Source of the DNA: Komagataeibacter xylinus
GTDB taxonomy: Bacteria > Pseudomonadota > Alphaproteobacteria > Acetobacterales > Acetobacteraceae
Reading direction: 5' to 3'
NCBI RefSeq assembly: GCF_004302915.1
Contig: NZ_QQBI01000006.1
Coordinates: forward strand, 1-64,000
Length of the DNA: 64,000 nt
In this document: one piece after another, positions 4,066 to 56,173 of the stretch
Layout of the letters: each line of letters starts with the position of its first letter
How positions within the stretch are numbered: the stretch's first letter is position 1
Position numbers and translations under genes: made by a program
Notes under the pieces: generated by a model
The model's input: the letters and a program-made list of their open reading frames with translations, nothing else
Told to the model about the DNA's origin: nothing
The model's database searches: none

Positions 4066-5514
4066 TTACAGAACTTTTTTCAGGGCTTCGTTCACCATGG
4101 CCGGATTGGCCTTGCCAGCCATGGCTTTCATCACCTGGCCCACAAAAAAGCCGAACAGCCGGTCCTTGCCACCACGGTATTCTTCCACCTTGTCGGCGTT
4201 ACGGGCCATGACATCGGCTACAGCGGCGTCAATCGCGCCAGTGTCGGTCACCTGCTTCAGGCCCTTGCGCTCCACAATGGCAGCCGCGCTGTCGCCAGTC
4301 TCGAGCATGTCCTCGAACACCTCCTTGGCGATCTTGCCATTGATGGTCTTGTCGGACACCAGATCCAGCATGCCCCCCAGTGCCGCAGCCGAGATCGGGC
4401 TGTCGGTAATGGTGCGGCCGGTGCGGTTGAGCGCACCAAACAGGTCACCCGTTACCCAGTTGGCAGCAAGGCGGGCATCACGGCCCTTGGCCACTTCCTC
4501 GTAATAATCGGCAATGGCCTGCTCGGCCACCAGCACGCTGGCGTCGTAGCGAGGAATGCCATATTCCTTGACGAAGCGGTCGCGCTTGTCATCCGGCAAC
4601 TCCGGCAGGCCACGCTCAAGCGCGTCCACCCATTCCTGTTCCACAACCAGCGGCAACAGGTCAGGGTCGGGGAAGTAGCGGTAATCATGCGCGTCTTCCT
4701 TGCTGCGCAGCGAGCGGGTCTCGTTGCGCGAGGGGTCGAACAGGCGGGTTTCCTGATCCACTTCGCCGCCATCTTCCCATACCTCGATCTGGCGCGTGGC
4801 CTCGACCTCGATGGCGTGCATGACATAGCGGATCGAGTTGACGTTCTTGATCTCGCAGCGCGTACGGAACGGTTCGCCCGCCTTGCGCACCGACACGTTC
4901 ACATCGGCACGCATGGAGCCTTCCTCCATGTTGCCATCGCACGTGCCCAGGTAACGCAGGATCTGGCGCAGCTTGCGCAGGTAGGCACCAGCCTCCTCGG
5001 GGCAGCGGATGTCGGGCTCGCTCACGATCTCCATCAGCGCCACGCCAGCGCGGTTGAGGTCGATGAAGGAGCGGGCAGGGTCCTGGTCGTGCATGGACTT
5101 GCCCGCATCCTGCTCCATATGCAGGCGCGTGATGCCGATATGGCGCACGGTGCCATCGGCCAGTTCGATCTCGACCGTGCCTTCACCCACAATCGGATGG
5201 GTGAACTGGCTGATCTGGTAGCCCGTGGGCAGGTCGGCATAGAAGTAGTTCTTGCGGTCGAACCGGCTTTCCAGATTGATACGCGCGCGCAGGCCGAGCC
5301 CCGTGCGGATGGCCTGGGCCACACATTCCTGGTTCAGCACCGGCAGCATACCCGGAAAGCCCGCATCGACCAGGCTCACATGCGTGTTCGGCTCACCGCC
5401 ATAGGATGCCGACGCACCGGAAAACAGCTTGGAATGGCTGATGACCTGCGCATGGACCTCAAGGCCCACCACGATTTCCCACGCGCCGGTCTTGCCTTCG
5501 ATCGTGTAGGTCAT
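4066..5514 (-). CDS. gatB: aspartyl/glutamyl-tRNA amidotransferase subunit B
   Basis: 482 residues, the usual size for GatB. With GatA and GatC it converts Glu-tRNA(Gln), and in some organisms Asp-tRNA(Asn), to the amide form; GatB carries the kinase and tRNA-binding part. The N-terminus ([22 protein letters not shown]) and the segment [19 protein letters not shown] are family signatures, and the C-terminal third is the helical tail/YqeY-like region that grips tRNA. It overlaps gatA by 4 nt (ATGA) and is last in a gatC-gatA-gatB operon. Confidence 0.97.
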
Positions 5515-11053: not shown

Positions 11054-11404
11054 TCAGGCTTTTCTGACGAATTCGGATTTGAGGTTTATTGCACCGATAC
11101 CCGCGATCTTGCAGGCAATATTGTGCCCGTCCGTGCCATCGACCAGACGGATGCCCTTCACCTTGGTACCCCCCTTGATCACGGAAGAGGCTCCCTTGAT
11201 CTTGAGGTCCTTGGTCACCGTAACACTATCGCCATCGGCCAGTACGTTGCCATTGGCATCGCGGATCTCGCCGGAGCCATCTGCACCACCTGCCGGCCTG
11301 TCGTTCGGGTTCCATTCACACCCGCATTCCGGGCAGGTCCACAGGCTGCCATCGGGGTAGACATGTTCGCACCCGCATTCGGGGCATTTGAGGTCGTTTT
11401 CCAT
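11054..11404 (-). CDS. PhnA/YjdM family zinc-ribbon protein
   Basis: 116 residues matching the YjdM family (historically called alkylphosphonate utilisation protein PhnA; not shown to act on phosphonates). A zinc ribbon at the N-terminus has two Cys pairs, [13 protein letters not shown] and CPECGCEW. The C-terminal PhnA domain runs [23 protein letters not shown] and ends [11 protein letters not shown], typical of the family. The start at 11404 was chosen to begin just before the zinc ribbon; longer in-frame reading is unsupported. Function is not established. It stands alone on the minus strand. Confidence 0.9.
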
Positions 11405-11528
11405 GATTATCCTTACTGTCTGGGCCCATGCCCATAAAGCATGCGTGCCCCGACAGGAAGGATATGGATCATGCAGGGGTGATTTTGTGGTTGCAGCCAA
11501 CCCCGAAGGGGCAGGGGAGGCACGTCCC

Positions 11529-11675
11529 TTATTGCTGGGGCGCCGTGCCGCCATGGGTGCTCACGCCGGGGCCACCGCCATCATCGGAGCCACCACCGGC
11601 GGGCTTGGGTTTGTCGCACCCGGCAAGGCAGGTCAGGACGGCCGCAGCCATCATCATCCGCGCAAGGTTTCGCAT
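11529..11675 (-). CDS. very small predicted lipoprotein, 48 aa
   Basis: Reads [20 protein letters not shown], then a Gly/Ser/Asp-rich tail ending THGGTAPQQ. The first 19 residues form a signal peptide with lipobox LAGC, so Cys20 would be lipidated and the mature protein would be only about 29 residues. AGGAGA lies about six bases before ATG, a good ribosome site. Aspartate at +2 would favour inner-membrane retention under the E. coli rule. Function unknown. A short Gly-rich lipoprotein of this kind could be a lysis-type or envelope-stress peptide, but nothing here shows that. Confidence 0.6.
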
Positions 11676-12155: not shown

Positions 12156-12205
12156 AAGTTTTTGGTGAAGCTTTTTCAAAAAGCTTCAAAAGACACCGCC
12201 TGTCC
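12156..12205 (+). repeat. dispersed structured repeat, left half (copy 1)
   Basis: Carries the left terminal sequence AAGTTTTTGGT (12156-12166) and the first hairpin, arms GAAGCTTTTT and AAAAAGCTTC (12167-12187). The second hairpin is replaced by a diverged stem-like stretch. It lies in the region between minus-strand small genes and yaiI, the only copy in this window not between convergent gene ends. Apart from this repeat and the yaiI leader, I see nothing else in 11975-12355. Confidence 0.8.
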
Positions 12206-12355
12206 GAAAGCAGGACGTTTTTAAGAACACGTCAGGACATAACCTTGCCAGTGCCCCGCACGACGGCATAGGAAAAAGGTCATGTCATGCTCCCTGCCGT
12301 ACAACCCCGCCCGTTCCATGCGCCCTTCCACCCGCCACAGGGCAGGGGGCATGCC

Positions 12356-12850
12356 ATGACCCGCATTTTCATTGATGCCGATGCCTGCCCGGTGCGCGAC
12401 GAGACCTATCGCGTCGCACTGCGCTACGGGCTGCATACCTTTGTCGTCTCGAACAGCGTGCTGGCCGTGCCGGCCTCGCCCCTGATCGAGCGCGTGGTGG
12501 TAACACAGGGCATGGACGTGGCTGATGACTGGATTGCCGGGCATGCCGCTGCGCATGACATTGTCATATCAGCCGATATTCCGCTGGCCGCGCGCTGTGT
12601 CGCGCGCGGGGCCTGCGTGCTCGACCCCAAGGGCCGCATTCTTGATGATAACGCCATCGGCATGGCGCTGGCCGTGCGCAACCTCATGACCGACCTGCGT
12701 GATACCGGCGTCATAACCCAGAGCAATCGCGGCTTTACCCGCGCTGACCGCTCCACATTTCTTTCCGCACTTGATACCGCCGTGGTCAAGGCCCGCAAAC
12801 GCGCGGCAGGGCACGGGCGGCCGCTGCCTGTTGTGCCACCTACAACATGA
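12356..12850 (+). CDS. yaiI: YaiI/YqxD family protein (UPF0178, DUF188)
   Basis: 164 residues beginning MTRIFIDADACPVRDETYRV, the signature of the YaiI/YqxD family. It carries later acidic positions in QGMDVADDWIAGHA and DIVISADIPLAARC, characteristic of the PIN-like nuclease fold proposed for these proteins; no reaction is established. ATG 12356 was chosen because the conserved N-terminus starts there, with a GGCAGGGGG ribosome site upstream. It converges on pgm. Confidence 0.88.
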   Translation: MTRIFIDADACPVRDETYRVALRYGLHTFVVSNSVLAVPASPLIERVVVTQGMDVADDWIAGHAAAHDIVISADIPLAARCVARGACVLDPKGRILDDNAIGMALAVRNLMTDLRDTGVITQSNRGFTRADRSTFLSALDTAVVKARKRAAGHGRPLPVVPPTT

Positions 12851-12865
12851 TTGTGGCAGGCGCGT

Positions 12866-12900
12866 AAAAAAAGCCGCCCGCTTCATGGGAAGCGGGCGGC
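12866..12900 (-). terminator. intrinsic terminator of pgm
   Basis: A 12-bp stem (arms GCCGCCCGCTTC and GAAGCGGGCGGC, 12873-12900) with a 4-nt loop. On the minus strand it is followed by seven Ts (12866-12872), a textbook intrinsic terminator for pgm transcripts. Confidence 0.85.
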
Positions 12901-12915
12901 ACCGAGGCTGTGAAC

Positions 12916-12952
12916 GCCGCCTATTTGAAAAAAGGCGGCACCCAAAAACCTT
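12916..12952 (+). repeat. dispersed structured repeat, right half (copy 2)
   Basis: The second hairpin, arms GCCGCC (12916-12921) and GGCGGC (12934-12939), then the right terminal sequence ACCCAAAAACCTT (12940-12952). It sits between the convergent 3' ends of yaiI and pgm, ten bases from the pgm stop. Confidence 0.8.
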
Positions 12953-12961
12953 TACATGATC

Positions 12962-26305: not shown

Positions 26306-26344
26306 AAAAACCAGCGCCGCCCGGCCTTTCCAGCCCGCACAGGG

Positions 26345-26406
26345 CTGCTTTTTTTAAAGGCGGCGTTTCCTGAAGCTTTTTGAAGAAAAGCTTCACCAAA
26401 AACGTC
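26345..26406 (-). repeat. dispersed structured repeat (copy 3, minus orientation)
   Basis: Read on the minus strand: ACGTTTTTGGT, first hairpin with arms GAAGCTTTT and AAAAAGCTTC (loop slightly longer), then a decayed second hairpin (GCCGC with GCAGC, one mismatch). The right terminal sequence is missing. It lies between the convergent 3' ends of the MATE gene and the membrane protein at 26443. Confidence 0.75.
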
Positions 26407-27094: not shown

Positions 27095-27424
27095 GTGATG
27101 AATATCCATGTTCCCTCCACCTATGAGGTCTACCGTGGCTGGCAGTCCATACAGGGCACCGGGCTGGAGATCGGCACGAGCCTGCTTGTCGGCGCCGTAC
27201 TGGTGCTGGCCTGCAGCATGGTGCTGTTCCTGCTGCCGACCTTCATCGCATGCCGCCGCAAGGTGCATAATGCAGCGGTTGTGGCGGTGGTGAACTGCAC
27301 CCTGGGCATGACCGGAGTAGGGTGGGTGATCGCGCTGCTCATGGCCTGCCTGCTCGAGACCGATACCAGCCGCCATGCGCGCCTGCGGCACAGCGAACCG
27401 GCCACGTTCCTGACCCTGCCCTGA
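27095..27424 (+). CDS. superinfection immunity-like membrane protein (Imm family)
   Basis: 109 residues. Two transmembrane helices, with the diagnostic LPTFIACRRKVHNAAVVAVVN and NCTLGMTGVGWVIALLMA, match the superinfection-immunity family typified by T4 Imm, which blocks DNA entry of a second phage. Family members are also common in chromosomes without prophages, often as unassigned small membrane proteins. No other phage genes surround it, so a defence role is possible but unproven. Confidence 0.75.
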   Translation: MMNIHVPSTYEVYRGWQSIQGTGLEIGTSLLVGAVLVLACSMVLFLLPTFIACRRKVHNAAVVAVVNCTLGMTGVGWVIALLMACLLETDTSRHARLRHSEPATFLTLP

Positions 27425-27823: not shown

Positions 27824-27851
27824 TTTCAAATCGTCAGGATGTTTCTGACAG

Positions 27852-27900
27852 CGCTTTTTCAAAAGTCTGAAAGAATGCCGCCTTTTTGAAAAAAGGCGGC
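27852..27900 (+). repeat. dispersed structured repeat (copy 4)
   Basis: A degenerate first half (AGCGCTTTTTCAAAAGTCTG) followed by an intact second hairpin, arms GCCGCC (27877-27882) and GGCGGC (27895-27900) around TTTTTGAAAAAA. The right terminal sequence is lost. It is seven bases from the serA stop, at a convergent gene end. Confidence 0.75.
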
Positions 27901-27906
27901 GCCCTG

Positions 27907-29172
27907 TTACTGCTGCTTGTACAGCAGGCGGGCGCGCAGCGTGCCCTTGAGTTCACGCAGGCGGTCAAGGATGCGGTTGTCCTTTTCCACATCGCGGCCG
28001 GTATCGGCCTCGACCACCACGTAGCCCAGTTCGCCCGCCGTCTGCAGGTACTGTGCGGTAATGTTGCAGGACTCGCTGGAGAATATCTCGTTAATCTGCA
28101 GCATGATGCCCGGCACGTTGCGGTGCACATGCATGAAGCGCGTGCCGTGCGGGTTTTCGGGCAGCTGCACGGTGGGGAAGTTCACCGCACCGAGCGTGGA
28201 GCCGATATCGGAGTATTCCACCAGCTTGCGGGCCACTTCCACGCCAATGCGCTCCTGTGCCTCCGCCGTGGAGCCACCGATATGCGGCGTCAGGATCACG
28301 TTATCCAGCCCGCGCAGCGGGGTTTCAAGCGGCTCGGCCGCCTGCTTGGGCTCCTTGGGGAACACGTCGATGGCAGCACCGAGCAGGTGGCCATCCTTCA
28401 GGGCCGCGGCCAGCGCATCAAGGTCCACCACGTTGCCGCGCGCGTTGTTGATGAGGAAGGAGCCCTTCTTCATCGCGCGGATCTGCGCCTCGCCAATCAT
28501 GCCCGCGGTTTCGGGGGTCTGGGGCACGTGCAGGCTGACCACGTCGCTCTGGGCCAGAAGGGTTTCGAGCGTATCGACCGGCGTTGCGTTGCCATGCACC
28601 AGCTTGTCGATCACGTCATAATAGAACACGCGCATGCCAAAGGCCTCGGCCAGCACGGAAAGCTGCGAGCCGATCGAGCCATAGCCCACGATGCCCAGCG
28701 TCTTGCCGCGCACTTCCCAGCTATTGGTGGCGGATTTCTTCCAGATGCCCGCATTGCATTCTTCCGATTTGGGGAAGATGCGGCGCATCAGCATCACGAT
28801 CTCGCCCATGACCAGTTCGGCCACCGAGCGGGTGTTGCTGTAGGGTGCGTTGAACACGGGAATACCGGCCTCACGCGCGGCGTCGAGATCGACCTGGTTG
28901 GTGCCGATGCAGAAGCAGCCGATGGCGATCAGGCGGTCGGCCTTCTCGATCACCTCGCGCGTGAGCTGCGTGCGCGAGCGGATGCCCACGATATGCACGC
29001 CTTCCAGCGCCTTCTGCAGGGCCTCGCCTTCCAGCGCCGTCTTGAGGCGGGTGACGTTCTCGTATCCGTTTTCCTTCAGCAGGTTGACGGCACTGTCATG
29101 AATGCCCTCAAGCAGCAGGATGCGGATCTTGTCCTTGGGAAGGGAAAGGTGGCCGGTGGATGGGCTGGTCAT
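27907..29172 (-). CDS. serA: D-3-phosphoglycerate dehydrogenase
   Basis: 421 residues, E. coli-like length. It oxidises 3-phosphoglycerate to 3-phosphohydroxypyruvate, the first step of serine synthesis. It has NAD site LGIVGYGSIGSQLSVLAEAF, catalytic Arg in GIRSRTQLT and His in ILTPHIGGSTAEAQ. A C-terminal ACT domain (VHRNVPGIMLQINEIFS) would bind serine for feedback control. ATG 29172 follows GGGAGCA. It is last in a cytochrome c-hisN-serA group, with 95 bp after hisN. Confidence 0.95.
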   Translation of the reverse strand: MTSPSTGHLSLPKDKIRILLLEGIHDSAVNLLKENGYENVTRLKTALEGEALQKALEGVHIVGIRSRTQLTREVIEKADRLIAIGCFCIGTNQVDLDAAREAGIPVFNAPYSNTRSVAELVMGEIVMLMRRIFPKSEECNAGIWKKSATNSWEVRGKTLGIVGYGSIGSQLSVLAEAFGMRVFYYDVIDKLVHGNATPVDTLETLLAQSDVVSLHVPQTPETAGMIGEAQIRAMKKGSFLINNARGNVVDLDALAAALKDGHLLGAAIDVFPKEPKQAAEPLETPLRGLDNVILTPHIGGSTAEAQERIGVEVARKLVEYSDIGSTLGAVNFPTVQLPENPHGTRFMHVHRNVPGIMLQINEIFSSESCNITAQYLQTAGELGYVVVEADTGRDVEKDNRILDRLRELKGTLRARLLYKQQ

Positions 29173-33870: not shown

Positions 33871-33905
33871 AAGTTTTTTGGTGAAGCTTTTTTCAGAAAG
33901 CTTCA
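33871..33905 (+). repeat. dispersed structured repeat, left half (copy 5)
   Basis: Left terminal sequence AAGTTTTTTGGT and the first hairpin with arms GAAGCTTTTTT and AGAAAGCTTC (33883-33904). The second half is absent. Located 25 bp past the smpB stop, at a convergent gene pair. Confidence 0.75.
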
Positions 33906-33969
33906 ACCTTTTGACACGCTCTGCATTTCGCAACGCCTCATCGGAACCAAGGCTGGAATACCAACAAAA

Positions 33970-41300: not shown

Positions 41301-41841
41301 CCAGCAGATGCTCGAGGATGCCGTGGCCGACCTGCGCACCGAGAAGGGACGGCGCAAGCTGCAGGACCGCGACTGGACGCCCAACATCATCCTTGGCCTG
41401 CCGGTGCTCATACCCGACAGCTACGTGACCGACCTGCCGGTGCGCCTTGGCCTGTACCGCCGCATCGCGGCCCTGGCCAATGATGCCGAGGTCGAGGCGA
41501 TGGAAGCCGAACTGGTTGACCGCTTCGGCACGCTGCCCGATGAGGTGCGCAACCTGCTGGACGTGGTGACACTCAAGCGCCTGTGCCGCGAGGCGGGCGT
41601 GGAACGGCTGGAAGCAGGCCCCAAGGGCATGGTCATCCAGTTCCGGGGCAATACCTTCGCCAACCCGGCGGGGCTGGTGGCATGGATCGCCCGGCAGAAG
41701 GAAGCCAATGTACGCCTCCGGCCCGACCACAAGCTTGCGATCATACGCGAGATGACCAACGCCCAGCGCATTACGCAGGCCCGCAAGGTGCTCGGCGCGC
41801 TGGTGCGGATGGTGCATGAGGAGGCAGGCGTTTCGGCCTGA
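38359..41841 (+). CDS. mfd: transcription-repair coupling factor
   Basis: 1160 residues, the usual length. It removes RNA polymerase stalled at lesions and recruits UvrAB. Order: UvrB-like domains (residues about 1-330), RNA polymerase interaction domain (about 480-560, EGDLIVHQDYGIGRYDGLET), RecG-like motor with Walker A VCGDVGFGKTEVALRAAF near 633, DEEQ box in LLIVDEEQHFGVAH, and a C-terminal TRCF domain (NIILGLPVLIPDSYVTDLPV). The start is coupled to sdhE through ATGA. Confidence 0.97.
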   Translation: MNDTAGFSLAPGAPVPVWGVPDGYDAFLLARRLGENEGPVLHVCRDDASMARIADQLAFVAPGAEILRFPGWDCLPYDRVSPNPAIIAERVATLTRLLEKATTPRIVLTTVMGAIQRVAPRAAFAGQSITIRAGESLDAPFLMELLIAHGYNRTDTVMEQGEFATRGGIFDIFPAGEAEPVRLDLFGDEVENIRRFDPGTQRSTAKIDSLTMRPVADFSLDPASISRFRTGWRDLFGPAAANDPLYQHISDGRRHAGMEHWLPLFHEQMETLVDYLPGVTISLANQAEEVLATRLEMITDHYDARKQPTREGEVPYRPLPPHLMYLDRKGWDAMIAGRKAVVFMPFAQPDGAPGMDAGGRPGQMFAKTVTEGRENVFPMLHARVEEWAQTGRRAYVTAWTRGSCERIGVLLREYRLPVQTFATWKEAQKLKPGTVGLLTLGLERGFVADNFAFISEQDLLGERISRPPRRRKKADQFISEASEIAEGDLIVHQDYGIGRYDGLETIGVGTAPHDCLRLIYDGNEKLFLPVENIELLSRFGSDQAHVALDKLGGVSWQSRKAKMKQRIRDMAGELIRTAAARALREAPALTPEEGLWDEFCARFLFIETEDQSRAIADVLDDMASGKPMDRLVCGDVGFGKTEVALRAAFVAAMSGAQVAVVVPTTLLARQHYRTFSARFAGLPVNVAQLSRMVTGKEATAVRKGLADGTVNIVIGTHALLAKTVKFADLGLLIVDEEQHFGVAHKEKLKALREDVHVLTLSATPLPRTLQLALTGVREMSLIATPPTDRLAVRTFIMPFDSVVIREAIQRERFRGGQVFCVVPRIEDLDRMATRLHEIVPDARLAQAHGRLTPTELEQVMTEFSDGKYDILLSTNIVESGLDMPAVNTLIIHRADMFGLGQLYQLRGRVGRGKQRGYAYLTWPQTHVLSAAAQKRLEVMQTLDTLGAGFTLASHDLDLRGAGNLLGDEQSGHIREVGIELYQQMLEDAVADLRTEKGRRKLQDRDWTPNIILGLPVLIPDSYVTDLPVRLGLYRRIAALANDAEVEAMEAELVDRFGTLPDEVRNLLDVVTLKRLCREAGVERLEAGPKGMVIQFRGNTFANPAGLVAWIARQKEANVRLRPDHKLAIIREMTNAQRITQARKVLGALVRMVHEEAGVSA

Positions 41842-41844
41842 AAA

Positions 41845-41901
41845 CGGGGTGCCTTTTTCTTACAAAAGCACCCCTCTCTGAAGCTTTTTGAAAAAAGCTT
41901 C
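41845..41901 (-). repeat. dispersed structured repeat (copy 6, minus orientation)
   Basis: Read on the minus strand: a degenerate left end (AAGTGTCTGGC), the first hairpin with arms GAAGCTTTTTT and AAAAAGCTTC, then a second hairpin whose arms are GGGGTGC and GCACCCC instead of GCCGCC and GGCGGC, yet perfectly paired. It starts 4 bp past the mfd stop, between convergent gene ends. Confidence 0.75.
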
Positions 41902-41933
41902 GCCAGACACTTCTTTCAGTCGGTGTCCGTTCA

Positions 41934-51545: not shown

Positions 51546-52415
51546 GTGATTAAGCCCCTTAAAAAAGCCGTATTGCCGGTTGCCGGCCTTGGCACCCGTT
51601 TCCTGCCCGCAACCAAGTGCGTGCCCAAGGAAATGCTCACCGTTGTCGATCGCCCGCTGATCCAGTACGCCATCGACGAAGCGCGTGAAGCCGGGATCGA
51701 GGAATTCTGCCTCGTGTCCAGCCGGGGCAAGGATTCCCTGATCGACTATTTCGACATTTCCTATGAGCTTGAAGACACGCTGAAGGCCCGCAAGAAGGCC
51801 TCCGCGCTCAAGGCGCTCGAAGCCACGCGCGTGACCCCGGGGTCCATGCTGTCCGTGCGCCAGCAGGAGCCGCTCGGCCTTGGCCACGCCATCTGGTGTG
51901 CGCGTGAGTTCATTGGCAACGACCCGTTCGCCATCCTGCTGCCCGATGACGTGGTGCAGAGCGAAAAGTCCTGCATCGGCCAGCTGGTTGAAGTCTACAA
52001 CAAGACCGGCGGCAACGTGCTGGCCGTGACCGAGGTGCCGCGCGAGCAGACCGGCAGCTACGGCATCCTCGACGTCGGCGCGGATGACGGCAAGACGGTT
52101 GAAGTGAAGGGCCTTGTTGAAAAGCCCGACCCCAAGGATGCGCCCTCGACCCTGTCGGTCATTGGTCGCTACGTGCTGACGGCGGACGTGCTCAAGCACC
52201 TTGCCAAGCTCGAAAAGGGTGCAGGCGGCGAAGTGCAGCTGACCGACGCCATGGCCAAGACTATCGGTCACGTGCCGTTCCACGGTTACCGCTACGAAGG
52301 CAAGCGCTTCGACTGCGGCAGCAAGCCGGGCTTCCTTGAAGCACAGATCGCCTTCGCCCTCGCACGCGAGGACCTGGCGGGCGACGTGCGGGAATTCCTC
52401 AAAAAGTATAAATGA
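51546..52415 (+). CDS. galU: UTP-glucose-1-phosphate uridylyltransferase
   Basis: 289 residues. It makes UDP-glucose from glucose-1-phosphate, the direct precursor of cellulose and other glucans. KKAVLPVAGLGTRFLPATKC is the nucleotide-binding signature and PKEMLTVVDRPLIQYAIDEA the substrate loop. The GTG start is followed by the family N-terminus and preceded by GAGG; no better ATG exists nearby. It overlaps the next gene by 4 nt, so supply and processing of hexose phosphates are coupled. Confidence 0.96.
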   Translation: MIKPLKKAVLPVAGLGTRFLPATKCVPKEMLTVVDRPLIQYAIDEAREAGIEEFCLVSSRGKDSLIDYFDISYELEDTLKARKKASALKALEATRVTPGSMLSVRQQEPLGLGHAIWCAREFIGNDPFAILLPDDVVQSEKSCIGQLVEVYNKTGGNVLAVTEVPREQTGSYGILDVGADDGKTVEVKGLVEKPDPKDAPSTLSVIGRYVLTADVLKHLAKLEKGAGGEVQLTDAMAKTIGHVPFHGYRYEGKRFDCGSKPGFLEAQIAFALAREDLAGDVREFLKKYK

Positions 52416-53821
52416 GCTTCAGGCACCATTTCGACCCCACAAGCCTGCGGGAATACGATATCCGCGGGATTGTGGGCGAAAGCCTGACGCAGGACGACGC
52501 CTATGCCATCGGCCGCACCTTCGGCTCCATGGTGGCACGGGCTGGCGGCTCGACTGTCGCCATCGGTTATGACGGACGCCTGTCATCCCCCGCCCTTGAG
52601 CGCGCGCTCGGGGCAGGGGCCATGGCGTCTGGCATGACCGTGCTACGCATCGGGCGTGGCCCCACGCCGATGCTCTATTTTGCCGCGACCACGCTGGTGG
52701 CCGATGGCGCGATTATGGTGACAGGCAGCCATAACCCGCCTGACCATAACGGCTTCAAGATGGTGCTTGGCAACAGACCATTTTTTGGTGAACAGATCCG
52801 CGAACTGGGCCGACTGGCCGCAGGCGGCGATGTCGTGGCCGAGGCCACCGGCACCACGCGCGATGTGAACGTGATTCCCGCCTATGTCGATCGCCTGCTG
52901 CGCGACTGGGATGGTACGGACCGGCCCCTCAATGTCGTATGGGACAGCGGCAATGGCGCCGCGGGCGAAATCCTGTCACTGCTGGTGAAAAGACTGCCGG
53001 GCAGGCATCGCATTCTCAACGCTGAAATTGACGGCACTTTTCCCGCCCATCATCCTGACCCGACCGTTCTGGCCAACCTCGAGCAGCTTATCGCCGCAGT
53101 GAGGGAGGATGGGGCTGATCTGGGCCTGGCCTTTGATGGCGATGCCGACCGCCTGGGCGTGGTGGACAATACCGGCACCGTGCTGTGGGCGGACCAGCTT
53201 ATGGTTGTGCTGGCGCGCGACATCCTGCGCGACCATGCGGGTGCTACAGTCATTGCCGATGTCAAGGCAAGCCAGACCCTGTTTGAAGAGATTGACCGCG
53301 CAGGCGGCACGCCACTGATGTGGAAGAGCGGGCATTCCCCCATCAAGATGAAGATGGCCGAGACCGGCGCGCCACTGGCGGGCGAGATGTCAGGCCATTT
53401 CTTTTTTGCCGATCGCTGGTACGGATTTGATGACGGGCTATACGCGGCACTCCGCCTGCTGGGTATCGTCTCGCGGCTCAGTGGTCCGCTCTCCGATGTG
53501 CGGCTGGGCCTGCCTGCTGCCGTTTCCACGCCTGAACTGCGCTTTGCTTGCGCCGATACCCGCAAATTCGCGGTGATTGCCGAAGTCGCCAAACGGCTTG
53601 AACGCAGCGGCGCACGTGTCTCCACCATTGATGGCGTGCGCGTGAGCACACCCGATGGCTGGTGGCTGCTCCGCGCCTCCAACACCCAGGCGGTTCTTGT
53701 TGCCCGGGCGGAAGGCGCGAGTGCCGCGGCACTGGACCGGCTGAAGACCGCGATCACGGCGCAACTGGAAGCATCTGGCCTTCGCGCGCCCGACTTTTCC
53801 GGCACGCCCGCCCTACATTAA
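52412..53821 (+). CDS. phosphomannomutase/phosphoglucomutase (AlgC/ManB family)
   Basis: 469 residues of the alpha-D-phosphohexomutase family. DIRGIVGESLT opens the fold. Ser106 in IMVTGSHNPPDHNGFK is the phosphorylated serine, LAFDGDADRLGVVD binds metal, and GEMSGHFFFADRW is the sugar-binding loop. It can supply mannose-1-phosphate for GDP-sugars as well as glucose-1-phosphate. ATGA-coupled to galU. A full repeat copy follows it. Confidence 0.93.
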   Translation: MSFRHHFDPTSLREYDIRGIVGESLTQDDAYAIGRTFGSMVARAGGSTVAIGYDGRLSSPALERALGAGAMASGMTVLRIGRGPTPMLYFAATTLVADGAIMVTGSHNPPDHNGFKMVLGNRPFFGEQIRELGRLAAGGDVVAEATGTTRDVNVIPAYVDRLLRDWDGTDRPLNVVWDSGNGAAGEILSLLVKRLPGRHRILNAEIDGTFPAHHPDPTVLANLEQLIAAVREDGADLGLAFDGDADRLGVVDNTGTVLWADQLMVVLARDILRDHAGATVIADVKASQTLFEEIDRAGGTPLMWKSGHSPIKMKMAETGAPLAGEMSGHFFFADRWYGFDDGLYAALRLLGIVSRLSGPLSDVRLGLPAAVSTPELRFACADTRKFAVIAEVAKRLERSGARVSTIDGVRVSTPDGWWLLRASNTQAVLVARAEGASAAALDRLKTAITAQLEASGLRAPDFSGTPALH

Positions 53822-53891
53822 TCAACGCTGCCGGGCGAACTGCTTAAAGACTATTTAAAAAGATAGTCCCTCTAAAACCCTGAAATTATAT

Positions 53892-53967
53892 AAGTTTTTG
53901 GTAAAGCTTTTTTCAAAAAGCTTCGAAAGACGTCGCCTTTGTGAAAAAAGGCGACACCCAAAAACTT
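53892..53967 (+). repeat. dispersed structured repeat, complete copy (copy 7)
   Basis: The only copy here with all four parts. Left end AAGTTTTTGGT; first hairpin with arms AAGCTTTTTT and AAAAAGCTT (53904-53923); second hairpin with arms GTCGCC (53932-53937) and GGCGAC (53950-53955); right end ACCCAAAAACTT (53956-53967). The right end is the inverse of the left apart from one base. It lies between the convergent ends of the hexomutase gene and the DUF934 gene. Confidence 0.85.
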
Positions 53968-54006
53968 TTCTTATTTTTTATCAACGATCTGTTTTCAAAC
54001 AGTCTC

Positions 54007-54498
54007 TTATTTGCCTAGAAAGCGGCGCAGCCCCAGCCCCTGCGGGCGCTCATGCAGCACGGAAGGCTGGTAGGCGATGGAAATGATGTCATGCGCCTGC
54101 TGCCACACGGCCACGTCTTCCGCCCGGTCGGTCTGCACGGTGGTCACGCCACAGCGGAGCAGGAACTCGTACTGATCGGGCAGCGGCGTGCCGGTGGCCC
54201 GGATCTCGCCGGTAAAGGACAGATGCTCACGCAGGGCACGGGCCTGCGTAAACGCCCGCCCATCGCGAAAAGAGGGAAAGTTCACTGCCACCAGCGCCAG
54301 CCGGGGCAGGGCAGGGCGCAGCACGGCCACATCCACATCCGGCCCGATGGCAACGCCAAGCGGTGCCGCCTTCGGGCGGGCCAGCCCTTCCTCCAGCCGT
54401 TCAAGCGGCACGATGACCGCACCATCAGGCAGGGCCTCGCCTGCAATGGCCTGCGCCCAGCGGTCTTCGGTCACACGACCATTCTCAAGCAGGGGCAT
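54007..54498 (-). CDS. DUF934 domain protein of the sulfate/sulfite reduction operon
   Basis: 163 residues matching DUF934, a family that follows sulfite reductase genes in many proteobacteria and is presumed to assist siroheme-enzyme maturation or electron supply; the mechanism is unknown. Landmarks are LALVAVNFPSFRDGRAFTQA with RALREHLSFTGEIRATG, and LLRCGVTTVQ. It overlaps the 3' end of the reductase gene by 14 nt, and ATG 54498 has AAGGA nine bases before it; ATG 54507 is an alternative. Confidence 0.85.
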   Translation of the reverse strand: MPLLENGRVTEDRWAQAIAGEALPDGAVIVPLERLEEGLARPKAAPLGVAIGPDVDVAVLRPALPRLALVAVNFPSFRDGRAFTQARALREHLSFTGEIRATGTPLPDQYEFLLRCGVTTVQTDRAEDVAVWQQAHDIISIAYQPSVLHERPQGLGLRRFLGK

Positions 54499-56173
54499 AG
54501 ACGGCATCCTTGAAGCTTGCGGCACCAAGGCGCCGGTAGGTATCGATAAACGCCTCACCTTCATGGCGAAGCACAAGGTAGGTGTCGATCAGCCGGGCAA
54601 TGGCGTCGACCGTTTCATCCTCCGGCAGGGCCGGGCCGATGATCTGGCCAATGGCCACGTCATTTTCCGCCGAGCCGCCAAGGGTGAGCTGGAAAAACTC
54701 CTCGCCGCGCTTGTCCACGCCCAGAATGCCGATATGCCCCGCATGGTGGTGGCCGCAGGCATTGATGCAGCCCGAGATGTTGATGCGCAGGGTGCCAATG
54801 TTTTCCTGCAGTTCGGGGCTGGCAAAGCGCGCGCTCAGCTTCTGCGCGATGGGGATGGAGCGCGCATTGGCCAGCGCACAGTAATCCAGCCCGGGGCAGG
54901 CGATGATATCACCCACCAGCCCGATATTGGGCGTGCCCAGCCCGGCGCCATCGAGCCTGAGCCACAGGTCACGCAACCGGTCCTTGCGCACATGGCCCAG
55001 CACCACGTTCTGCATGTGGGTCACGCGGATCTCGCCAAAGGAGAATTCATCGGCCAGATCCGCAATCAGGTCCATCTGGTCGGCAGTGACGTCACCGGGA
55101 ATGCCGCCATCGGGCTTGATGGACACGACCGCGCTGATGAAGCCTTCATGCCGGTGGGCGTGCGTGTTGGTGCGCACCCAGCGGTCAAAGCGGGCATCGG
55201 CCTTGCGGGCGGCCTCGAGCTTCTGTGCCGCATCGGCAGGGGCATCCAGGTCGGGAATGCCGAAACGTGCGCGAATGCCTTCCACAATGGCGGGTTCAAG
55301 CCGGTAATCCGCGCGGTTCATCTGGGCGAATTCGGCATCGACCTTCTCGCGAAACTGCTCCACGCCCAGCGCCTGCACAAGGATCTTGATCCGCGCCTTG
55401 TACATGTTGTCGCGCCGCCCATAGGCGTTGTACACGCGCACCACGGCCTCGAGATAGGCCAGCAGGTCTTCCTCGGGCAGGTTGTCGCGCAGTTGCACGC
55501 CAATAATGGGCGTGCGGCCAAGCCCGCCACCTACGAACACGGTGAACACGGCCCGCCCGTCCGGGCCGGGATGGGCGACGAGGCCAATATCATGGAAGCG
55601 CGCGGCCACGCGGTCATTGGGGCTGCCGCTGATGGCGATCTTGAACTTGCGCGGCAGGAACGAGAATTCCGGGTGCAGCGTGGACCACTGGCGCAGGATC
55701 TCGGCATGGATGCGCGGATCAAGCAGTTCATCGGCGGCGGCACCGGCAAACTCGTCACACGTCACGTTGCGGATGCAGTTGCCGCTGGTCTGGATGGCAT
55801 GCATGTTCACGCCCGCCAGCCGCTCGAGGATATCGGGCGTATCCTCAAGCCGGATCCAGTTGAACTGGATGTTCTGGCGCGTGGTGAAGTGGCCGTAATC
55901 ACGGTCATACGTGCGGGCGATATGGGCGAGTTCGCGCATCTGGTCCGAACCCATCATGCCATAGGGCACGGCCACGCGCAGCATGTAGGCGTGTAGCTGC
56001 AGGTATAGGCCGTTCATCAGGCGCAGGGGCTTGAATTCGTCCTCGGTCAGGTCGCCTGCCACGCGGCGGCCCACCTGCTCGCGAAACTGGGCCACGCGCT
56101 GCGACAGAAAGGTGCGGTCCACCTCATCATAGGCGTACCGGCCAACCGGCAGGGTTGCGGTGTCAGTGGACAT
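54485..56173 (-). CDS. cysI: siroheme-dependent nitrite/sulfite reductase (hemoprotein)
   Basis: 562 residues with the two-fold ferredoxin-reductase/siroheme layout. The cysteine ligands are C-x5-C in ACPGLDYC and C-x3-C in GCINACGHHHAGHIG (about residues 425-472), binding [4Fe-4S] and siroheme. It reduces sulfite to sulfide in assimilation; a nitrite-reducing relative is possible, but the operon partners point to sulfite. The start overlaps the DUF2849 gene by 11 nt. Confidence 0.9.
   Translation of the reverse strand: MSTDTATLPVGRYAYDEVDRTFLSQRVAQFREQVGRRVAGDLTEDEFKPLRLMNGLYLQLHAYMLRVAVPYGMMGSDQMRELAHIARTYDRDYGHFTTRQNIQFNWIRLEDTPDILERLAGVNMHAIQTSGNCIRNVTCDEFAGAAADELLDPRIHAEILRQWSTLHPEFSFLPRKFKIAISGSPNDRVAARFHDIGLVAHPGPDGRAVFTVFVGGGLGRTPIIGVQLRDNLPEEDLLAYLEAVVRVYNAYGRRDNMYKARIKILVQALGVEQFREKVDAEFAQMNRADYRLEPAIVEGIRARFGIPDLDAPADAAQKLEAARKADARFDRWVRTNTHAHRHEGFISAVVSIKPDGGIPGDVTADQMDLIADLADEFSFGEIRVTHMQNVVLGHVRKDRLRDLWLRLDGAGLGTPNIGLVGDIIACPGLDYCALANARSIPIAQKLSARFASPELQENIGTLRINISGCINACGHHHAGHIGILGVDKRGEEFFQLTLGGSAENDVAIGQIIGPALPEDETVDAIARLIDTYLVLRHEGEAFIDTYRRLGAASFKDAVYAPA

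Follow-up and report, generated by a model that had tools for sequence, protein, structure and literature searches.

Introduction

A stretch of 64,000 nucleotides from Komagataeibacter xylinus (contig NZ_QQBI01000006.1; here called the window) contains a dispersed hairpin repeat, and its copy at 53892-53967, in the gap between two convergent genes, raises three questions: what kind of element it is, how it reached the ends of genes and what keeps it there. The initial annotation of this DNA hesitated between a MITE- or REP-like family recruited as 3'-end elements and an element that spreads into 3' gaps. Here, we describe the 76-bp unit of that annotation as the core, roughly 80 bp in length, of a MITE that measures 160-163 bp, has GAGACTGTTTGAAAA at its ends and is flanked by a TTA duplication, and we put at about two in three the probability that the family consists of IS5-type MITEs that insert at TTA/TAA and have been retained as a bidirectional terminator or 3'-end element.

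The repeat and its copies in the window

Genome-wide, the pattern of the first hairpin gave 78 and 80 matches on the two strands against 0 and 0 for the reversed pattern, and in a covariance search, in which 150 out of 2242 first-look candidates were scored, 150/150 fit the model at E <= 1e-4; the repeat is therefore not a product of chance. By this model, at least 150 copies are present in the source genome, which comprises 3.63 Mb in 101 contigs. A sample of 837.5 kb (0.84 Mb), which includes the window and contigs partly selected for matches, contains 120 copies at >=12 bits (the nhmmer threshold used for this sample and for the relatives, 20 bits being used for the named loci), 49 of them in the 375 kb of contig C13 alone. 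An Rfam scan of the window returned two tRNAs only, with no match of the repeat itself above a gathering score; below threshold, the locus reached at most 25.3 bits, where a score of 50 would have been required. Among open-access papers we recognised no description of the repeat.

The repeat is present at all seven places in the window where it had been reported, as judged from the sequence and from a covariance model built from 14 full copies, but the sole complete core is the one at 53892, the remaining six copies being half copies or degenerate. On the plus strand, these comprise a copy with a degenerate right half (12156-12235, 49 bits), a right half copy made up of hairpin 2 and the closing arm in the convergent gap between DUF188 and PGM_PMM genes (12916-12949 by sequence; model match at 12847-12956, 36 bits), a copy with a degenerate left half between a PF14373 gene (plus) and a 2-hydroxyacid dehydrogenase gene (minus) (27839-27917, 46 bits), and a left half copy between smpB (plus) and a cold-shock-domain gene (minus) (33871-33906, 26 bits). 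On the minus strand, a partial copy lies in a convergent gap next to a MatE gene (26342-26404, 31 bits), and a copy with a GGGGTGC/GCACCCC second hairpin lies 3' of a plus-strand gene with TRCF and helicase domains (41838-41912, 38 bits). This stem variant and the variant GTCGCC/GGCGAC were both found in the sequence as described. Our own gene calls also agree that six of the seven copies sit between convergent genes. The exception is the copy at 12156, whose gap was called tandem by the gene finder, which overlooked a YjdM gene (minus strand, 11054-11554) on its left; a plus-strand DUF188 gene lies on its right, and the 600 bp between YjdM and DUF188 might hold another gene. As a side observation, the PF14373 superinfection immunity domain is encoded by a small gene at 27095-27424.

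A conserved core within a mobile unit

The window copy can be laid out from end to end. A complete MITE of 160 bp, found by the end search and aligned with the full copies, occupies 53847-54006 between a plus-strand phosphoglucomutase/phosphomannomutase gene (52412-53821) and a minus-strand DUF934 gene (54007-54576, start codon uncertain). It is preceded by the left target duplication TTA (53844-53846) and opens with a terminal inverted repeat at 53847-53861 that differs from GAGACTGTTTGAAAA at 3 positions. The conserved core, which is the repeat originally reported, follows at 53892-53972 (97 bits) and is predicted, alone and in the consensus, to fold as a three-way junction, formed by the 5' arm of a closing stem (GTTTTTGG, 53894-53901), hairpin 1 (AAAGC...GCTTC with an A/T tip, 53903-53924), hairpin 2 (the GTCGCC/GGCGAC variant, 53932-53955) and the 3' arm of the closing stem (CCAAAAAC, 53958-53965). 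A T-rich tract comes after this arm (53966-53982), then the right terminal inverted repeat, an exact GAGACTGTTTGAAAA on the minus strand (53992-54006), and the right target duplication TTA (54007-54009), which is at the same time the TAA stop codon of the DUF934 gene. What the initial annotation took for terminal inverted repeats of 11-12 bp is the closing stem of the core; the MITE extends beyond the core by 45 nt on the left, to its true end at 53847, and by 34 nt on the right, to its true end at 54006.

These ends were revealed by a copy on a Novacetimonas hansenii plasmid, in which a perfect outer inverted repeat of 16 bp encloses the core. The terminal inverted repeats measure 15-16 bp and mostly stand at a fixed spacing from the core, which gives the MITE a fairly fixed geometry: a 15-bp end, about 32 nt, the core, about 20 nt and a second 15-bp end. 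A search of 3.93 Mb (some stretches duplicated) for inverted end pairs with <=2 mismatches within 3 kb yielded eight, seven of which are 162-163 bp long, with one copy among them counted twice; the eighth, of 925 bp, is unrelated to the MITE. Eight distinct full copies, the window copy included, align end to end at lengths of 160-163 bp, the alignment combining five of 11 candidate end pairs with three further copies and leaving out the six other candidates with lengths of 130-169 bp, irregular ends or ends within a hairpin (e.g. G004 6206, 160 bp). The target-site duplications for which the initial annotation had proposed to look are found at these outer ends: identical 3-bp flanks, all TTA in the orientation of the MITE, border six of the eight aligned copies, the two others having unequal triplets (TAA/TTA in G003, CAA/TAA in C24a). 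The end motif itself occurs 24 times in the source genome (<=1 mismatch) against 0 for the reversed motif, and 19 of the 24 adjoin a core; of the five that do not, two were inspected and are isolated arms.

One locus of the source genome (L181 on C57; region 4512-4740) holds a MITE at 4565-4725 with both ends inside hairpin 2 of an older copy and TAA on either side. Excising this MITE together with one TAA restores a full-length older core that aligns to the consensus over 79 positions, and the nested copy is, as read from the sequence, a direct trace of transposition. A clean empty site between species was looked for in the relatives and none was found. As transposon ends, the edges of the core were unconvincing: the lowest fraction in 168 symmetric tests was 0.03, and the lowest in 10 free-offset tests, 0/100 shuffles (three cases), does not stand out for the number of tests. 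The absence of a duplication there is expected if the true ends sit further out. Erosion of the arms can be followed at one gap (gap 8), where the source genome retains an arm between stop codon and core that is lost in three close relatives. Taken as a whole, the sequence evidence supports the mobility of the family well, and the MITE alternative of the initial annotation holds, given the outer terminal repeats, the fixed length of 160-163 bp, the TTA duplications, the nested copy with its TAA duplication and a relative of the ends in the IS5 family (see below).

Stop codons as probable insertion targets

The TAA stop codon at the right end of the window copy is one of several such cases. Of the 34 ends located at the expected distance, 18 have TAA/TTA as their immediate neighbour. 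In seven, the adjoining triplet is precisely a gene's stop codon (six times TAA, once TGA; the window copy, with its TTA at 54007-54009 and the DUF934 gene, belongs to these seven), compared with 8 such coincidences at 1836 displaced positions. Fisher's test gives p 2e-9 for this coincidence, a value that is optimistic because the control was not conditioned on a TAA triplet and the 34 ends include orthologues. All six TAA cases face the 3' end of the element. The edge of the core itself was rejected as a source of stop codons, supplying just 4 of 100 gene ends. TAA stop codons are thus a plausible harmless entry route for the MITE.

A candidate transposase

As a partner of the repeat, the initial annotation had suggested looking for an IS or RAYT transposase; this search led to an IS5-family relative of the ends and to no RAYT in 19 genomes of the genus. 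Two IS5-family elements on Gluconobacter plasmids (L346 and L347) are 882-883 bp long and have ends GAGCCTGTTTGGAAAATC, of which 13 of the first 15 bases are identical to the MITE end GAGACTGTTTGAAAAGTC; their flanks are TTA/TTA in L347 and TCA/TTA in L346. Their transposases are 96-97% identical to that of a further element (L342), which matches NF033580, shares 12/15 bases of the MITE end and is flanked by TAA/TAA. On sequence comparison, the L346/L347 element is a relative of the MITE ends and not their exact parent, and no autonomous parent with identical ends was found in 3.93 Mb. It resembles the MITE in its end bases and in the TTA/TTA flanks of L347, and differs in being coding and 882-883 bp long and in that a branched core is not known from it. 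The likeness does not extend to IS5 elements in general, as L344, also of NF033580 type, has unrelated ends; nor was an inverted pair found at L345 or at the transposase genes at L341 (35723-36644) and L342 (32097-33017). IS1031 is known from acetic acid bacteria, according to the part of the source that concerns it (PMC6559022); our comparison of IS5-family ends covers L342, L344, L346 and L347. Mobilisation of the MITE in trans by an IS5-family transposase is what these likenesses suggest.

A REP/BIME family moved by a RAYT (Y1) transposase would share with the present repeat the two inverted hairpin units, the 3'-end location and the high copy number. The Y1 transposase domain is found in 0 of 19 genomes of the genus, in a Y1_Tnp search that does give matches in E. 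coli, and the GTAG or CGTC tag at the hairpin foot is absent from the alignments, in which the consensus reads GGTG on one strand and GGGTG on the opposite one; what the copies do have is TTA/TAA duplications and ends like those of IS5 elements. For this genus the REP/BIME reading is largely refuted, and we give it next to no weight overall. Y1 matches do occur in 17 of 150 genomes of the family, and four of these (G061, G117, G151, G182) also fit the core model, so that these carriers of other genera may have a link with Y1.

Position relative to genes

Mapped against gene orientation (gene calls from a home-made finder), the copies show the strong 3'-end bias that the initial annotation had anticipated. 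The 120 copies of the sample divide into 66 in convergent, 49 in tandem and four in divergent gaps, one at a contig edge and none in predicted genes; occupancy among gaps of >=40 bp is 64/82 for convergent, 47/245 for tandem and 4/102 for divergent ones. In tandem gaps, 40 of 49 copies are closer to the 3' end of the upstream gene and 39 of 49 begin <=35 nt past its stop codon, 31 copies pointing against the genes and 18 along with them (p 0.09). The 80 named loci, which were chosen for an exact match, gave 65 convergent, 36 tandem and four divergent matches and none in predicted genes, 22 of the 127 matches being at edges and excluded from the orientation counts. In an annotated K. nataicola plasmid, a YceI gene and an aldo/keto reductase gene likewise converge on a copy. 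Target supply was rejected as the cause of the bias: intergenic TTA/TAA predict 12.5 convergent and 37.4 divergent copies against the observed 66 and 4, a calculation in which masking of element sequence lowers the expected convergent figure. Gap length alone (16,750 of 110,748 bp) predicts about 18 of 119 copies to be convergent, again against 66.

Fold, tails and structural constraint

The full core folds as a three-way junction in which the closing stem GTTTTTGG/CCAAAAAC carries hairpin 1 and hairpin 2 (about -30 kcal/mol), a stability reached by 0 of 200 shuffles; for two copies this fold was obtained on both strands (z -5.0 to -6.3). One strand of the plasmid locus L332 folds better as a rod than as a junction. 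Past the closing stem, T-rich tails are found on both strands (consensus TTTTAT..TTT on one side). Their TransTermHP-type scores have medians of -4.5 (n=47) and -4.1 (n=51), compared with -1.8 at 810 intergenic points chosen at random; these medians refer to the 47 and 51 of 65 full copies with a recognisable closing arm and, as the tails are part of the repeat consensus, the copies are not independent. A stable hairpin followed by a U-tract, as in Rho-independent terminators, is therefore present on both strands, but the stem immediately before the U-tract is not GC-rich: the closing stem is AU-rich, unlike that of a textbook terminator. Another canonical terminator is recognised in 22 of 64 occupied convergent gaps, and none in the other 42. 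That the core substitutes for canonical terminators is not supported by this measure, with 22 of 64 occupied against 9 of 18 unoccupied gaps having one (p 0.28). Together with the position of the copies, the fold and the tails suggest that the core may end transcripts or protect mRNA 3' ends.

From compensatory changes in the stem, the initial annotation had argued for selection on structure. In an alignment of 81 copies from the source genome, 25 of 31 pairs show changes on both sides against 11.2 in shuffles (0/500), but slid structures also yield 16 to 23 such pairs; the clearer signal is the fraction of paired cells, 87% against 43-63% in the slid structures. In four comparisons of orthologues, single changes that break a pair number 15, 31, 24 and 8 against null values of 45, 60, 55 and 21, with 0 of 1000 null cases as low in each. 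Compensatory double changes number 5, 3, 7 and 3 against an expectation of 2.3, 3.6, 2.8 and 2.2, one of the four tests being below 0.05, and the total of pair-keeping changes (27, 33, 42 and 18 against 30, 35, 43 and 13) is without excess in three of the four. Selection on structure is thus supported mainly by two observations, that pair-breaking changes are scarce and that whole helices are replaced between genera; the excess of compensatory changes is modest. The earlier claim had been staked on an orientation bias and an excess of paired substitutions; the former is clear and the latter only modest.

Turnover between relatives and genera

Between close relatives the places of the repeat are largely shared. 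In three relatives with 96% anchor-gene identity, 34, 35 and 34 gaps are shared, two, one and two are occupied in the source genome only and three, four and four in the relative only; at 87-89% identity, the shared, own-only and relative-only numbers are 19/16/1, 8/8/0 and 3/15/1. For convergent gaps of >=40 bp, occupancy is associated with that in G008 (87% anchor-gene identity; table 15/5/0/5, p 0.005) and not significantly with that in G002 or G012. Orientation is conserved in 90 of 96 close but 9 of 23 distant comparisons, several of the flips among close relatives resting on low-scoring copies. Orthologous full cores have median identities of 85-91%, and in 12 of 36 same-orientation cases a core matches its orthologue best. 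Places thus persist while the sequence in them is renewed, be it through replacement of one copy by another, through flipping or through fast drift. Simple inversion was rejected as the cause of the flips, as the flipped copy at gap 99 also has a different hairpin 2, which replacement by another copy fits at least equally well.

In three genomes of other genera (G062, G160 and G226) the closing stem and the T-tipped hairpins are kept and the inner stems differ. In G226 (L276, L281, L286), convergent gaps of 124 bp are taken up nearly from stop codon to stop codon by a four-way-junction form, about 125 bp long, that has three inner hairpins; five of six loci of this genome are convergent, two of these being one copy read on both strands. 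The fold is less distinct in these genomes, five of six loci in G062 preferring a single long rod to a junction. In G062 and G160 together, one of 12 loci is convergent and four are divergent. Separately, the copies of G160 (L263, L268, L278, L283, L288) are near-identical to one another, with very different inner stems and some of them in divergent gaps; they look like a young family with the same frame.

Proposed explanation and alternatives

We propose that hundreds of full or eroded copies of 160-163-bp IS5-type MITEs populate each genome, with an inner core of about 80 bp that would form a three-way junction with a U-rich tail on either strand. Mobilised in trans by an IS5-family transposase, the MITE would insert at TTA/TAA and duplicate 3 bp; where the target is a TAA stop codon, the gene would keep its stop and gain a core just downstream. 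The ends would then erode, and the core would persist because it ends transcripts arriving from both sides and possibly shields the mRNA 3' end, so that retained cores would by now fill the majority of convergent gaps in the genome sample. A terminator or 3'-end function as the reason for retention is suggested by the position and conservation of the copies.

The most obvious alternative, a purely selfish MITE that is found at 3' ends because selection removes insertions in genes and promoters, accommodates the clear hallmarks of mobility, the eroding arms and many half copies, the canonical terminators in 22/64 occupied convergent gaps, the missing excess of pair-keeping changes in three of four comparisons and the 4/12 divergent loci of G062 and G160. 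It fits less well with the gap between convergent (64/82) and tandem (47/245) occupancy, with pair-breaking changes at about half of expectation or less, with the occupancy association with G008 (p 0.005; not significant for G002 or G012) and with a frame that is maintained around new inner stems, and we regard it as unlikely. Slightly lower still we place a pure stabiliser of 3' ends, in which Rho would stop transcription further on and trimming would proceed back to the branched hairpin, in a REP-like manner. The stable fold on both strands speaks for such a role, as do the tandem copies, with 39/49 lying <=35 nt past the upstream stop and 40/49 nearer the upstream gene, and the analogy with REP sequences as treated in the relevant part of PMC3733652; U-tracts on both strands would be needless for it. 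Stabilisation and termination are not mutually exclusive and can coexist. A role at the DNA level has been proposed for REP/BIME, and the core might likewise handle supercoils, for instance by forming a cruciform or by offering a site to gyrase or a nucleoid protein. This would suit the convergent enrichment and the palindromic core, but 49 copies lie in tandem gaps too and we find this reading improbable.

A retained IS5-type MITE with a terminator or 3'-end function is therefore the reading that we prefer for this genome. Its extension to acetic acid bacteria as a whole, with the MITE as a standard two-way terminator that enters via TAA stops, copies overwriting or flipping one another and inner hairpins re-invented in each genus, is tentative, and we hold it at rather less than even odds. 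The MITE between convergent genes of vinegar and cellulose bacteria may serve as a usual stop signal for transcription in these organisms.

Relation to known repeats

Several known elements share part of these features. Pneumococcal SPRITE, BOX and RUP are likewise small intergenic repeats, SPRITE being Rho-independent terminator-like as far as the relevant section of a 2024 review of prokaryotic MITEs goes (PMC10969869); by description, they are set apart from the present family, which sits in the Acetobacteraceae and fills most sampled convergent gaps. Correia and ERIC are MITEs with folding transcripts that affect the fate of RNA according to the same section, in which Correia elements are mapped predominantly upstream of genes, in contrast to four of 120 copies in divergent gaps here, and in which a terminator role for MITEs is called only 'conceivable' (PMC10969869). 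REP/BIME sequences, in the passages concerned (PMC3733652), have inverted hairpin units, a high copy number and a downstream and convergent location, whereas the present family has no Y1 transposase in the genus, no GTAG/CGTC tag and IS5-like ends; the same passages give CGTC repeats as missing in Acetobacteraceae (PMC3733652). Bidirectional intrinsic terminators share the A-tract and U-tract on either side and the convergent location, and are treated as individual terminators in the parts of the sources that concern them (PMC7566282, on Zymomonas; PMC1590033), in contrast to one repeat family with a three-way junction and an AU-rich closing stem.

As far as we could see, a single MITE family in most convergent gaps of a genome sample is new. 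Should this be confirmed, transposon parts would have been adopted as transcription end signals across a genome, and the family would offer two-way terminators for the engineering of cellulose- and vinegar-making bacteria. It also illustrates a trap: since the transposon ends erode first, the core alone resembles, and can be mistaken for, a REP or a lone terminator. Lichenicola cladoniae belongs to the same family as the carriers, the Acetobacteraceae. In the relevant part of a report on it, predicted palindromes are counted and no repeat is described (PMC12306157).

Distribution among genomes, plasmids and viral contigs

The repeat is present in 18 of 18 other sampled genomes of the genus. 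Outside the genus, one of 17 genomes from the rest of the family has it, against 0 of 24 from other families. A wider search of the family at 1e-4 found it in 45 of 299 genomes (source genus included) and 20 of 102 genera, and the carriers named among the matches listed include Komagataeibacter, Novacetimonas, Acetobacter, Gluconobacter and Gluconacetobacter entanii. No record of a phage collection searched at E 1e-5 matches the core. An exact 33-mer of the core occurs in three IMG/VR contigs classed as viral (L329, L330, L331), which may be mis-sorted host DNA or may reflect carriage by prophages. In a plasmid collection, nine of 72,556 records match at a lenient cut-off, seven of the nine from acetic acid bacteria. 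On the N. hansenii plasmid NZ_CP094849.1, which is typed as conjugative and is a possible vehicle for the spread of the MITE, a full-length copy (L332 2454-2615) adjoins the 3' end of an IS630 transposase gene.
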